Made by a program: the position numbers and the translations under genes | Notes under the pieces: generated by a model | What the model saw: only the letters and a program-made list of their open reading frames with translations | Told to the model about the DNA's origin: nothing | Databases searched by the model: none | DNA from: Salegentibacter mishustinae | GTDB taxonomy: Bacteria; Bacteroidota; Bacteroidia; Flavobacteriales; Flavobacteriaceae | Reading direction: 5' to 3' | Assembly: GCF_002900095.1 (NCBI RefSeq) | Contig: NZ_LLKN01000002.1 | Span: forward strand, 930,001 to 994,000 | DNA: 64,000 nt | Shown here: one piece after another, positions 34,190-36,126 of the stretch | Position numbering within the stretch: position 1 is the stretch's first letter | Layout of the letters: each line of letters begins with the position of its first letter

Positions 34190-34206
34190 TCCCGAAATTA
34201 TCGGGA
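34190..34206. repeat. REP-like palindrome at the far end of the GIY-YIG array
   Basis: TCCCGA (34190-34195) / TCGGGA (34201-34206) with a 5-base loop, matching the stem of the REP family found inside the array units. It marks the distal edge of the decayed third unit. Confidence 0.65.
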
Positions 34207-34221
34207 TGTGTAGTTAGCCAG

Positions 34222-34419
34222 TTATTGTCTTGTGTTGTGAAGATTTTGGCTAACCAATGAGAAGCTTTTTTCCGTGTATTCGGAAAGAGGCTTTTTTGTT
34301 TTAGGGACTTTTCTCAAAAGGGAACTCCAAAAATTTTCCAATTGCACTATCCACTTAGCAGTCTCACCAATATAAAATCTATCTAATTTTTTATTATAAA
34401 GAATATAGAGGTAGTGCAT
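34222..34419 (-). pseudogene. Truncated third copy of the tRNA-linked GIY-YIG nuclease gene
   Basis: The first roughly 21 codons (MHYLYILYNKKLDRFYIGET) are almost identical in DNA and protein to the two complete copies to the right; homology stops abruptly near 34356. The rest of the open frame is unrelated and runs through a terminator-like hairpin (34264-34297: CTTTTTTCCG and CGGAAAGAGGCTTTTTT). The catalytic Arg and Glu regions are missing, so this is a remnant rather than a gene. Confidence 0.75.
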
Positions 34420-34431
34420 AGCATAGAATTA

Positions 34432-34468
34432 AAAAAGCCCGAAAACACAAAGTGTATCGGGCTTTTAA
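34432..34468. terminator. Terminator copy, unit 1
   Basis: AAAAAAGCCCGA and TCGGGCTTTT arms with an AAACACAAAGTGTA-type loop, a copy of the tRNA-Phe terminator. T tracts on both strands make it bidirectional. Confidence 0.8.
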
Positions 34469-34508
34469 GGTGGTGCCTCCAGCCCCGACGCTTCGGGGGG
34501 AACCAGGG
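34469..34508 (-). repeat. tRNA-Phe 3'-end fragment with T-loop replaced by REP, unit 1
   Basis: GGTGGTGCCTCCAG (34469-34482) and GAACCAGGG (34500-34508) are identical to the 3' end and 5' T-stem of tRNA-Phe (at 35212-35240 on the same strand). In the tRNA they are separated by GAATC; here that is replaced by CCCCGACGCTTCGGGG (34483-34498) plus a G. Confidence 0.85.
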
Positions 34509-34509
34509 G

Positions 34510-34791
34510 CTATTTTTTCTCAAGAATATCTTCTAATATCCCGGGATTGTCGACTATTTTTCTAATGAATTTCTTGCTCTTCATTCGTTTGATGAATTTT
34601 TCCAGGAAAATTGCATCTTCTTTACTAAGATTTTCAACTTTTAGCACAAGTTCCCAGTCGTCTGCTTTTCCGGTGAATGCTTGCTTATAATGTTTAGAGT
34701 GATGCTTTTGTATTCTAGCTTTAATGTTAAATGTTTCACCAGTATAAAATCTATCTAATTTTTTACTATAAAGAATATAGAGGTAGTGCAT
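34510..34791 (-). CDS. Small GIY-YIG nuclease, tandem copy A
   Basis: 93 residues forming a single GIY-YIG domain: YLYILYSKKLDRFYTG in the first two strands, the catalytic Arg in IKARIQKHH (about 26), FTGKADDWELVLKVE, and the conserved Glu in IFLEKFIKRMKS (about 64). The YIG of the family reads YTG here, a substitution absent from copy B. It shares about 87 of 93 residues with copy B, 371 bp to the right. It begins a few bases after a terminator T tract with no clear ribosome-binding site, so it may be translated from read-through tRNA-Phe transcripts. Its stop is 1-2 bp from the tRNA fragment. Confidence 0.85.
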   Translation of the reverse strand: MHYLYILYSKKLDRFYTGETFNIKARIQKHHSKHYKQAFTGKADDWELVLKVENLSKEDAIFLEKFIKRMKSKKFIRKIVDNPGILEDILEKK

Positions 34792-34802
34792 AGTATAGAA
34801 TT

Positions 34803-34840
34803 AAAAAAGCCCGAAAAAACAAAGTATATCGGGCTTTTAG
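34803..34840. terminator. Terminator copy, unit 2
   Basis: AAAAAAGCCCGA and TCGGGCTTTT arms, with small loop differences from the copies at 34432 and 35174. Confidence 0.8.
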
Positions 34841-34879
34841 GGTGGTGCCTCCAGCCCCGATGCTTCGGGGGAACCAGGG
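34841..34879 (-). repeat. tRNA-Phe 3'-end fragment with T-loop replaced by REP, unit 2
   Basis: GGTGGTGCCTCCAG (34841-34854), REP CCCCGATGCTTCGGGG (34855-34870), GAACCAGGG (34871-34879). The REP occupies exactly the place of the five T-loop bases GAATC in the intact gene, while the flanks are unchanged. It lies 1 bp from the stop codon of GIY-YIG copy B. Confidence 0.87.
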
Positions 34880-34880
34880 T

Positions 34881-35162
34881 CTATTTTTTCTCAAGAATAT
34901 CTTTTAATATCCCGGGATTGTCGACTATTTTTCTAATGAATTTCTTGCTCTTCATTCGTTTAATAAATTTTTCCAGAAAAATTGCATCTTCTTTACTGAG
35001 AGTTTCAAATTTTAGTACTAGTTCCCAGTCGTCTGCTTTTCCGGTAAATGCTTGCTTGTAATGTTTAGAGTGATGCTTTTGTATTCTAGCTTTAATGTCA
35101 GATGTCTCACCAATATAAAATCTATCTAATTTTTTACTATAAAGAATATAGAGGTAGTGCAT
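34881..35162 (-). CDS. Small GIY-YIG nuclease, tandem copy B (tRNA-proximal)
   Basis: 93 residues, one GIY-YIG domain with the canonical YLYILYSKKLDRFYIG start, Arg in IKARIQKHH, and Glu in FLEKFIKRMKS. Such stand-alone domains are structure- or sequence-dependent endonucleases by family knowledge, often in mobile elements. It begins 52 bp after the end of tRNA-Phe, just past the tRNA's terminator, on the same strand. Six residues differ from copy A (17, 21, 22, 52, 54, 87). All catalytic positions seem intact, so this is the copy most likely to be active. Confidence 0.87.
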   Translation of the reverse strand: MHYLYILYSKKLDRFYIGETSDIKARIQKHHSKHYKQAFTGKADDWELVLKFETLSKEDAIFLEKFIKRMKSKKFIRKIVDNPGILKDILEKK

Positions 35163-35173
35163 AGCATAAAATT

Positions 35174-35209
35174 AAAAAAGCCCGAAAACACAAAGTGTAT
35201 CGGGCTTTT
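35174..35209. terminator. tRNA-Phe terminator
   Basis: AAAAAGCCCG (35175-35184) pairs with CGGGCTTTT (35201-35209); a T tract on the minus strand terminates the tRNA transcript just before the GIY-YIG start codon (35162). Confidence 0.87.
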
Positions 35210-35213
35210 AAGG

Positions 35214-35286
35214 TGGTGCCTCCAGGAATCGAACCAGGGACACAAGGATTTTCAGTCCTTTGCTCTACCAACTGAGCTAAGGCACC
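35214..35286 (-). tRNA. tRNA-Phe (GAA)
   Basis: 73 nt, read right to left. Acceptor GGTGCCT pairs with AGGCACC, discriminator A (35214). The anticodon loop CTGAAAA gives GAA (Phe), and the T-loop is TTCGATT. The T-stem has a T-T mismatch in its middle pair. CCA is not encoded. Fragments of its 3' end recur in the array to the left. Confidence 0.97.
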
Positions 35287-35394: not shown

Positions 35395-36126
35395 ATGAAT
35401 TTAATCGTTGACGTAGGGAATTCTTCCGTAAAACTTGCTGTTTTTCAGGACTATAAACTTTTGGAATCTTACACATCTTCAATCGAAAAATTTTTTGAAA
35501 AATTTCAGGAAATAAAAAAAGATTATCCGCAAATCGCGTTTTCCATTCTTTCTTCAGTAATAAAAGATACTTCAGAGCTTGAAAAAATCCTGGAAAAAGA
35601 AGCTAAGCTCTATGTTTTAAACGAAAGCACTAAGCTTCCGTTCAAAAACAATTATGCTTCATCTCAAACTTTAGGAAAAGATCGATTGGCGTTAGTTGCA
35701 GCCGGTTCTTTAAAGTTTCAGGATGAAAATTTATTGATTATAGATGCTGGCACGTGTATAACTTTCGATTTTAAGAATAATGCGAATGAATATTTAGGGG
35801 GCGCTATTTCTCCCGGTTTGCAGATGAGGTTAAAAGCGCTTAATCATTTTACCGCTAAACTTCCGCTGGTTGATTTAGATGAAAATGTCCCGCTAATAGG
35901 CGATTCTACTCAAAATAGTATTTTATCTGGGGTGTTGAATGGGGTAAGTGCAGAGCTTGATGGAATTATTGATCGCTACAAGGCTGGTTATAAATATTTA
36001 ACAGTTATTTTAACAGGAGGGGATACGCAAATTTTGTCAAAGCGGGTAAAAAATAGCATATTTGCCAACCCGAATTTTCTTTTAGAGGGTTTAAACTACA
36101 TTTTAGAATTTAACAAGACTCAATGA
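35395..36126 (+). CDS. coaX: Type III pantothenate kinase
   Basis: 243 residues. ASKHA fold: phosphate-1 motif IVDVGNSSVKLAVF at 4-17, the segment SQTLGKDRLALVAAG (GxDR), and the phosphate-2 motif IIDAGTCITFDF followed by GGAISPGLQMR. It phosphorylates pantothenate to 4'-phosphopantothenate at the start of CoA synthesis in the cytoplasm. The next gene's ATG overlaps its stop (ATGA), so it leads the 35.4-43 kb operon. A typical length for CoaX. Confidence 0.95.
   Translation: MNLIVDVGNSSVKLAVFQDYKLLESYTSSIEKFFEKFQEIKKDYPQIAFSILSSVIKDTSELEKILEKEAKLYVLNESTKLPFKNNYASSQTLGKDRLALVAAGSLKFQDENLLIIDAGTCITFDFKNNANEYLGGAISPGLQMRLKALNHFTAKLPLVDLDENVPLIGDSTQNSILSGVLNGVSAELDGIIDRYKAGYKYLTVILTGGDTQILSKRVKNSIFANPNFLLEGLNYILEFNKTQ

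Follow-up and report, generated by a model that had tools for sequence, protein, structure and literature searches.

Tandem GIY-YIG nuclease units at bacterial tRNA genes point to an undescribed kind of tRNA-homing selfish element

Results

A tandem array of GIY-YIG genes lies behind tRNA-Phe

The stretch of DNA analyzed here (the window, 64,000 nucleotides at its full length) comes from Salegentibacter mishustinae (contig NZ_LLKN01000002.1, positions 930,001 to 994,000), and a preliminary description made from its sequence had claimed a tandem array of genes for small GIY-YIG nucleases behind a tRNA-Phe gene, together with copies of the tRNA 3′ end. This array is real. Along the minus strand, the intact tRNA-Phe is followed by a terminator, gene A, a tRNA 3′ copy bearing a palindrome, a second terminator, gene B, a second palindrome-bearing copy, a third terminator and a truncated gene, as listed here.

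35212..35286, minus strand: intact tRNA-Phe(gaa), called by ARAGORN; it adjoins the upstream gene at 35395-36126 in 14 of 15 genomes of the genus
35174..35209, minus strand: terminator 1, a hairpin and T-run between tRNA-Phe and gene A, read from the sequence
34881..35162, minus strand: gene A, intact, a GIY-YIG gene of 93 amino acids (PF01541, E 2e-12)
34841..34880, minus strand: displaced tRNA-Phe 3′ copy 1, in which the palindrome CCCCGAAGCATCGGGG at 34855-34870 replaces tRNA positions t57-61 (T-loop)
34803..34838, minus strand: terminator 2, read from the sequence
34510..34791, minus strand: gene B, a GIY-YIG gene of 93 amino acids with an intact frame (PF01541, E 3.4e-11; 94% identical to A)
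34469..34509, minus strand: displaced tRNA-Phe 3′ copy 2, with the palindrome CCCCGAAGCGTCGGGG at 34483-34498
34431..34466, minus strand: terminator 3, read from the sequence
about 34330..34419, minus strand: truncated third gene (gene C), first 30 codons matched (63% identity over residues 1-30; repeat family D2)
34190..34206, no strand assigned: palindrome TCCCGAAATTATCGGGA, in the flank and excluded from the array

Two intact genes, a truncated third and the tRNA 3′ copies bear out the claimed array. The truncated gene matches PF01541 with an E value of 0.0063, under the cut-off for that family. The stated period of 371 bp is correct for the distance from gene A to gene B; from gene B to gene C it is 372 bp. 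The palindrome at 34190-34206, which had been taken as the terminal part of the array and likened to a repetitive extragenic palindromic (REP) element, is not counted here because its flank also occurs, diverged, in some array-free relatives (by eye, at loci L134, L136 and L137). The window contains seven palindromes in all, compared to a mean of 0.0 in 30 first-order Markov sequences. The ratio of nonsynonymous to synonymous substitution rates (dN/dS) for gene A versus gene B is 0.13.

The structure model of protein A is confident (predicted local distance difference test score, pLDDT, 93.3), and Y5, Y16, G18, H30 and E64 are invariant among 26 sequences, with R26 nearly so; these conserved GIY-YIG residues are taken to include the catalytic ones. 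The PF01541 match, the conserved residues and the fold match to structure 1zg2 place the protein in the GIY-YIG superfamily. This nearest solved structure, UPF0213 protein BH0048, is matched at 2e-11 by sequence and at E 8.7e-4 by fold, and weaker fold matches were obtained to SLX1 (E 0.042) and I-TevI (E 0.086).

When the whole genome was searched at E 0.01, seven matches were found: the three window units, two more at one other site, and two distant GIY-YIG genes (L006 and L007) with no tRNA within the fetched stretch. That other site is a further array of the same design behind tRNA-Val, where the tRNA is followed by a terminator, a gene, a damaged tRNA-Val copy with palindrome, a terminator, a gene, a further copy, a terminator and a truncated gene.

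The gene family is linked to tRNA genes of many types

A search that used copy A and a threshold of E 1e-12 gave matches in 76 of 397 genomes of the bacterial family, representing 60 of 231 genera. From these we assembled 94 loci, comprising 87 hand-grouped clusters of the family search and seven loci from the window's genome and genus, all of them drawn by protein similarity. For 80 of the 94, the distance between the gene and a same-strand tRNA or tRNA-like call is under 300 bp; most of these tRNAs are Phe, Asn, Val, Arg, Pro or Met, and Ser, Leu and Asp occur once each. Three of the 80 loci (L087, L088 and L096) were counted through a palindrome-bearing copy that ARAGORN calls tRNA-Stop(tta) or tRNA-SeC(tca), and such calls in related genomes may be false. 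Among loci without a near tRNA, linkage to rRNA was considered and rejected, as Rfam on 12 such loci gave tRNAs in four, one riboswitch and no rRNA. At L120 (G021:C24), 1.2 kb from tRNA-Phe, the GIY-YIG profile is matched over its C-terminal half within an open frame of 477 residues.

The association extends to the phylum. A profile of the protein family matched 91 of 392 genomes at E 1e-20, and a tRNA was present in the stretch for 28 of 30 fetched loci (three of these genomes, G000, G143 and G184, overlap the first set), adding Ala(ggc), Arg(acg), Pro(cgg) and more Asp to the tRNA types. Named genomes gave a same-strand tRNA within 600 bp for 43 of 53 loci, 32 of them Phe; at least five of the 53 come from genomes already in the first set (G407, G162, G278, G380 and G358), and several of the loci that miss the 600-bp limit lie on short stretches at contig ends. 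The named carriers include Flavobacterium (several named species with the Phe unit), Maribacter, Psychroflexus and Christiangramia, among others, as well as Balneolaceae assemblies in which the tRNA is tRNA-Asp.

As a control, we examined 30 GIY-YIG loci chosen from 102 PF01541 matches in 21 genomes. All seven loci scoring at least 60 bits on the family profile adjoin a tRNA or tRNA-like call, irrespective of strand; four of them had seeded the profile and three are new. In contrast, no tRNA was found in the stretch for any of the 23 GIY-YIG loci in these 21 genomes that scored below 57 bits or were unscored. We conclude that the tRNA link is a property of this family and not of GIY-YIG proteins generally; the association proposed from the window held among its homologues. 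A phage or plasmid origin was rejected, as tblastn with copy A gave no match in either collection; four weak viral contig relatives were noted, at 30-34%.

The unit contains a displaced tRNA copy interrupted by a conserved palindrome

The anatomy of the unit was compared across the 109 loci, out of 126, that have a tRNA no more than 310 bp away (the G316 locus is present twice, as L060 and L162). The gene is downstream of the tRNA in 91 of the 109, with a gap of 30-60 bp in about 70, measured from the profile match to the tRNA end; among 18 loci viewed as sequence, a terminator fills this gap wherever the gene is downstream. In the other 18 of the 109 (Asn, Pro, Arg-cct and Asp) the gene is upstream, and the damaged tRNA piece then lies 5′ of the tRNA. 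At some loci the tRNA copy provides the stop codon of the gene (by eye). At the tRNA-Asp locus of a genus relative (L011), the gene frame enters the intact tRNA, which gives the stop, and a tRNA 5′ piece with palindrome lies upstream. One unit thus consists of a small GIY-YIG gene, a partial, palindrome-bearing copy of one tRNA gene and its terminator, and occupied sites retain an intact tRNA plus, mostly, one displaced copy.

With a motif chosen after the anatomy alignments had been viewed, a palindrome was found on the displaced side at 84 of the 109 loci (shuffled sequences: mean 0.08, maximum 1 of 100). The palindrome ends are TCCCG (59), CCCCG (17), TTCCG (2) and GTCAC (6), the last belonging to the Pro lineage (including L101), in which the palindrome takes the different form GTCACGC...GCGTGAC. 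The position of the palindrome goes with tRNA type across the 109 loci: t56/t62 (T loop) in Phe; t28/t46 in Val; t27/t45 (anticodon arm) in Arg-tct and Ala; in Asn, t14/t18 (D loop) where the gene is upstream and often t45/t51 where it is downstream; t35/t41 in Met (one t50/t58); and after t50 in Pro. Base pairing was assessed at 64 of the 109 loci in five groups (G316 counted twice), of which 42 are anchored on tRNA on both sides; 41 of these 42 have six perfect outer pairs when trimming of up to two bases is allowed, and the pairs vary in step. The T-loop, which the preliminary description had named as the insertion site, holds as the palindrome position for the Phe lineage; in other lineages the palindrome sits in a D loop, an anticodon arm, a variable loop or a T arm. 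The proposal that the old 3′ end is pushed away fits the presence of a displaced copy, with the amendment that additional tRNA positions are kept upstream of the palindrome (about t44-56 in genus g126, by eye, and t48-56 in the window).

Partial tRNA copies also occur as tandem repeats that lack the gene, at L150 (three 118-bp repeats), L115, L119, L078 and L109, and the palindrome is present in those of L150, L115 and L119. These repeats may be non-autonomous derivatives.

One explanation for the palindrome is that it is itself mobile, a dispersed REP-like repeat of the host that enters hairpin-forming DNA, including spare tRNA copies, with the nuclease as passenger or helper. Palindromes of the form CCCGA(2-8)TCGGG are indeed dispersed, with 77 in the window's genome (including window positions 1592, 23362 and 43122) compared to three for a reversed control. 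In the 15 contexts inspected among these 77, no stretch of tRNA-Phe, -Val or -Asp stands out clearly (best local score 9.1), and a few palindromes sit, by eye, within other inverted repeats, such as AAGCTG...CAGCTT around 1592. Nevertheless, we consider this explanation highly unlikely: 140 of 149 family genomes have just 0-3 copies of the pattern TCCCGANNNNTCGGGA (that loop length alone being counted), yet the position of the palindrome in the units goes with tRNA type, and the palindrome of the Pro lineage is a different one.

Protein clades, selection and decay within arrays

A tree was built from one full-length gene per locus for 123 of the 126 loci; it rests on a short alignment, and 54 of its 119 forks stay open. 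The tRNA label changes 28 times on this tree, compared to 82.7 times when labels were shuffled (0 of 200 shuffles as low), with unlabelled rows treated as a group and a minimum possible of 14. All 19 Phe rows fall on the same side of one branch with support of 98, one of these labels (L048, with tRNA-Phe 1.5 kb away) having been assigned by hand. Protein clades therefore follow tRNA type. Of 16 pairs, which share sequences, 14 have dN/dS values of 0.06-0.29 and one has 0.52; for the last the ratio could not be computed. The gene is under purifying selection.

Decay within arrays has a direction. We compared 43 arrays that have at least two matches and lie within 300 bp of a tRNA: in 13 the far end is broken and the end near the tRNA whole, 3 show the reverse, 26 are full throughout and 1 is mixed. 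Broken units are thus commoner at the end far from the intact tRNA. Such decay is consistent with units entering next to the intact tRNA, or with selection acting on the copy nearest to it. The preliminary description had attributed stacking to repeated insertion or duplication; recombination between units is also possible, and a long array in G167 has five units of equal score.

Another reading is that the units amplify tRNA for the benefit of the host. Arrays are common, with at least two matches at the 43 loci just described. The phage nuclease SegB, also of the GIY-YIG type, is reported to adjoin tRNA genes, cut within them and drive the tandem amplification of segB and tRNA-Tyr (PMC13096335). 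By analogy, the nuclease might drive tandem copying of the tRNA region and so protect the cell's stock of tRNA, for instance from tRNA-cutting defences or toxins. In the arrays viewed, however, the additional tRNA copies are partial or palindrome-interrupted and hence add no usable tRNA, and no sequence kinship with T4 SegB beyond the fold was detectable by profile comparison (hhalign probability 4.1%). We accordingly give little credence to a host-useful amplifier.

Occupied and empty sites differ by one unit

Within the window's genus, the full tRNA-Phe locus is present in 14 of 15 genomes and the gene only in the window's own; one relative, L134, keeps its first 11 codons. A terminator follows tRNA-Phe in 12 of the 14 members, 11 of these having no intact gene (by eye). 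Since this terminator is common to occupied and unoccupied loci, a terminator specific to the element at the Phe locus was rejected for this genus, and the earlier proposal that the element brings its own is not supported there. At tRNA-Val the same genus has (by eye, n = 14) four intact genes, one altered, seven remnants and two loci with none. A sequence starting GGATCAAG, which in some loci runs into an end like that of an insertion sequence, truncates the GIY-YIG gene within its first ~15-35 bases (by eye); in five genomes this happens at tRNA-Val, in one at tRNA-Phe (L134, L147, L148, L153, L156 and L158). This place in the gene seems to be hit repeatedly.

Two other genera contain both occupied and empty sites. 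In the genus of G316, where the gene lies upstream of tRNA-Asn, 17 loci comprise 3 occupied, 9 clean empty and 1 decayed, the remainder being 1 empty with another flank and 3 with no tRNA in the stretch. In genus g126, 116 of 121 genomes match at tRNA-Phe, and the 30 loci fetched comprise 3 occupied and 27 without the gene. Full comparison of the occupied loci L300, L310 and L316 with the empty loci L301, L302, L305 and L307 gave unit lengths of 380, 380 and twice 379 bp, with one GIY-YIG gene inside. In L300 and L310, the displaced copy and its terminator are succeeded by the native flank, which in empty loci comes after the single tRNA and terminator; in L316 the bases after the terminators are alike, which makes the join less clear. 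The distance to a downstream anchor is 693 in L300 versus 312 in the empty L302, with a range of 312 to 1049 among the empty loci that have the anchor. In the genus of G209, where an empty site of the downstream type was sought at tRNA-Asn, three of four genomes matched and gave no clear contrast between occupied and empty.

By these alignments, a single unit of about 380 bp distinguishes occupied from empty sites, and the tRNA is intact in both; the preliminary description had named such a contrast as support for insertion. Its picture of an insertion that spares the tRNA and displaces a damaged tRNA piece also fits, with relatives tied to tRNA genes well beyond the window's genome. Its alternative, simple duplication of one unit, leaves the spread of the gene to many different tRNAs unexplained. 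As the whole story we rejected it, given the presence of the family at many tRNA types and in many genera and the single-unit differences from empty sites between species.

Discussion

A minimal homing-like element is the favored explanation

We lean, by a modest degree, to the view that the array consists of stacked copies of a minimal selfish, homing-like element of about 370-380 bp that uses tRNA sequence as its landing homology. The nuclease would cut at, or close to, a tRNA locus in which the unit is missing, and the break would be repaired by host recombination from an occupied locus, the tRNA halves serving as homology arms, such that the unit spreads and the tRNA survives. The gene sits behind a terminator or within the tRNA transcript, and read-through from the tRNA promoter would give low expression. 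Arrays could lengthen as further units enter at the intact tRNA, or as units recombine with each other.

Several observations weigh against this view. The intact tRNA-Phe is identical in the carrier and 13 compared relatives (by eye), and a nuclease that cut the tRNA alone would therefore cut its own host, so that additional flanking sequence, low expression or another site is needed. Cutting, expression and movement are inferred from sequence, and the exact join within the tRNA is not fixed, as the displaced copy retains tRNA positions upstream of the palindrome. The palindrome motif is missing from 25 of the 109 displaced-side regions, and tblastn with copy A gave no match in the phage and plasmid collections. 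Fourteen of the 94 loci (L048, L058, L066, L067, L072, L073, L080, L113, L114, L115, L119, L120, L123 and L124) fall outside the 300-bp limit. Among these, palindrome-bearing tRNA pieces are present by eye at L073, L080, L113, L114 and L123, the tRNA is cut by a contig end at L067, tRNA-Phe 3′ pieces lie between the units of L048, and L115 and L119 have partial tRNA-Pro copies.

Other objections bear on the main rival, namely that the gene is an old tRNA-linked resident that descends vertically, duplicates in place by unequal recombination and is frequently lost, with no active movement. The Val gene of the window's genus looks ancestral and decaying in most members, a pattern that vertical descent with loss explains as well. 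Empty sites can be clean losses, because recombination between the two terminators would restore them. On the g126 flank tree the scatter of carriers requires 3 changes compared to a shuffle mean of 2.9, and gain and loss are thus not told apart. Carrier genes are no closer than their flanks: gene identity is 0.76, 0.78 and 0.84 (ungapped) against flank identity of 0.883, 0.852 and 0.832, lower in two pairs and about equal in the third, which leaves recent horizontal movement unsupported. The five equal-score units in the G167 array likewise fit duplication in place. Despite these points, we consider purely vertical descent unlikely. It does not readily account for the presence of one family at many types of tRNA and its switches between them on the tree (28 changes against the minimum of 14), nor for single-unit differences at two tRNA types in two other genera, and duplication alone gives no conserved palindrome.

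The letters of the palindrome are conserved across tRNA types, which argues that it is read by something, and a site recognized by the nuclease or a partner is the leading candidate, although we hold it tentatively. A less probable reading is that the palindrome overwrites the cut site and so protects the old copy. The motif reported for SegB is RAWTSGAAC (PMC13096335); on the other strand it may correspond to T-loop-like sequence, and the Phe palindrome replaces part of such a stretch, which favors protection. Somewhat less probable again is that the palindrome is a host repeat that settled in the tRNA copy.

A broader reading, possible but on the doubtful side when all its parts are taken together, is that the units form a phylum-wide class of mobile DNA that needs no integrase. 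A nuclease of ~90 amino acids, acting through the palindrome in a sacrificed tRNA copy, would make the break that drives its own copying, with tRNA as homology arms; the tRNA gene of any cell would be a ready landing site at which the intact tRNA is never lost; and the gene-less palindrome-tRNA repeats would be non-autonomous passengers.

tRNA genes are classic docking sites of mobile DNA, and such elements generally carry integrases and span many kilobases. Here, one gene of about 280 bp appears to suffice, in many bacteria and at many tRNA types. If the homing-like interpretation is correct, these units would be among the smallest autonomous mobile elements and a bacterial counterpart to phage SegB; they would explain why gene-finding software reports some tRNA-like sequences as stop or selenocysteine tRNAs, and they could serve as a natural system, marked by a palindrome, for insertions into tRNA loci. 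In the open-licence literature, searched by titles and abstract starts, no description of such units in bacterial chromosomes appeared among the matches listed. Together, the data point to an undescribed kind of tRNA-homing selfish element.

Comparison with known systems

By sequence and by fold, the closest structure is that of the small GIY-YIG protein of UPF0213 type (BH0048, 1zg2). The units would differ from such proteins in their tRNA link if the 23 low-scoring GIY-YIG loci without a tRNA represent them. SLX1 and I-TevI share the fold, at weak scores, and the conserved GIY-YIG residues; these proteins have other partners or extra domains and are not known as tRNA-linked single-gene units.

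REP elements, which are short palindromes in intergenic DNA, are associated with REP-associated tyrosine transposases (RAYTs). The present units differ in having no second gene and in a palindrome whose position goes with tRNA type. No Y1 (HUH) transposase was found inside the window units, the only part of the genome searched for one. Integrase elements and genomic islands target tRNA genes and spare one intact copy of the tRNA, and the units resemble them in that the target tRNA is intact and a leftover tRNA piece lies at the other end. In contrast to those elements, they have no site-specific recombinase: the g126 insertion is 379-380 bp with a single GIY-YIG gene, the window units are built likewise, and an integrase island was rejected because no integrase lies within the unit. 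As with homing endonuclease genes, the gene is present or absent at one site with a clean empty counterpart (3 of 30 occupied at tRNA-Phe; 3 occupied and 9 empty of 17 at tRNA-Asn).

The likeness to SegB of phages T4 and T6 is that of a GIY-YIG gene beside tRNA genes, from which tandem copies of nuclease and tRNA region are reported to arise (PMC13096335). SegB is a phage protein of 221 amino acids encoded by one gene in a tRNA cluster, whereas the units described here lie in bacterial chromosomes and encode proteins of about 80-93 amino acids. Unlike SegB, they form compact units of about 380 bp, each with a displaced tRNA copy and a conserved palindrome.

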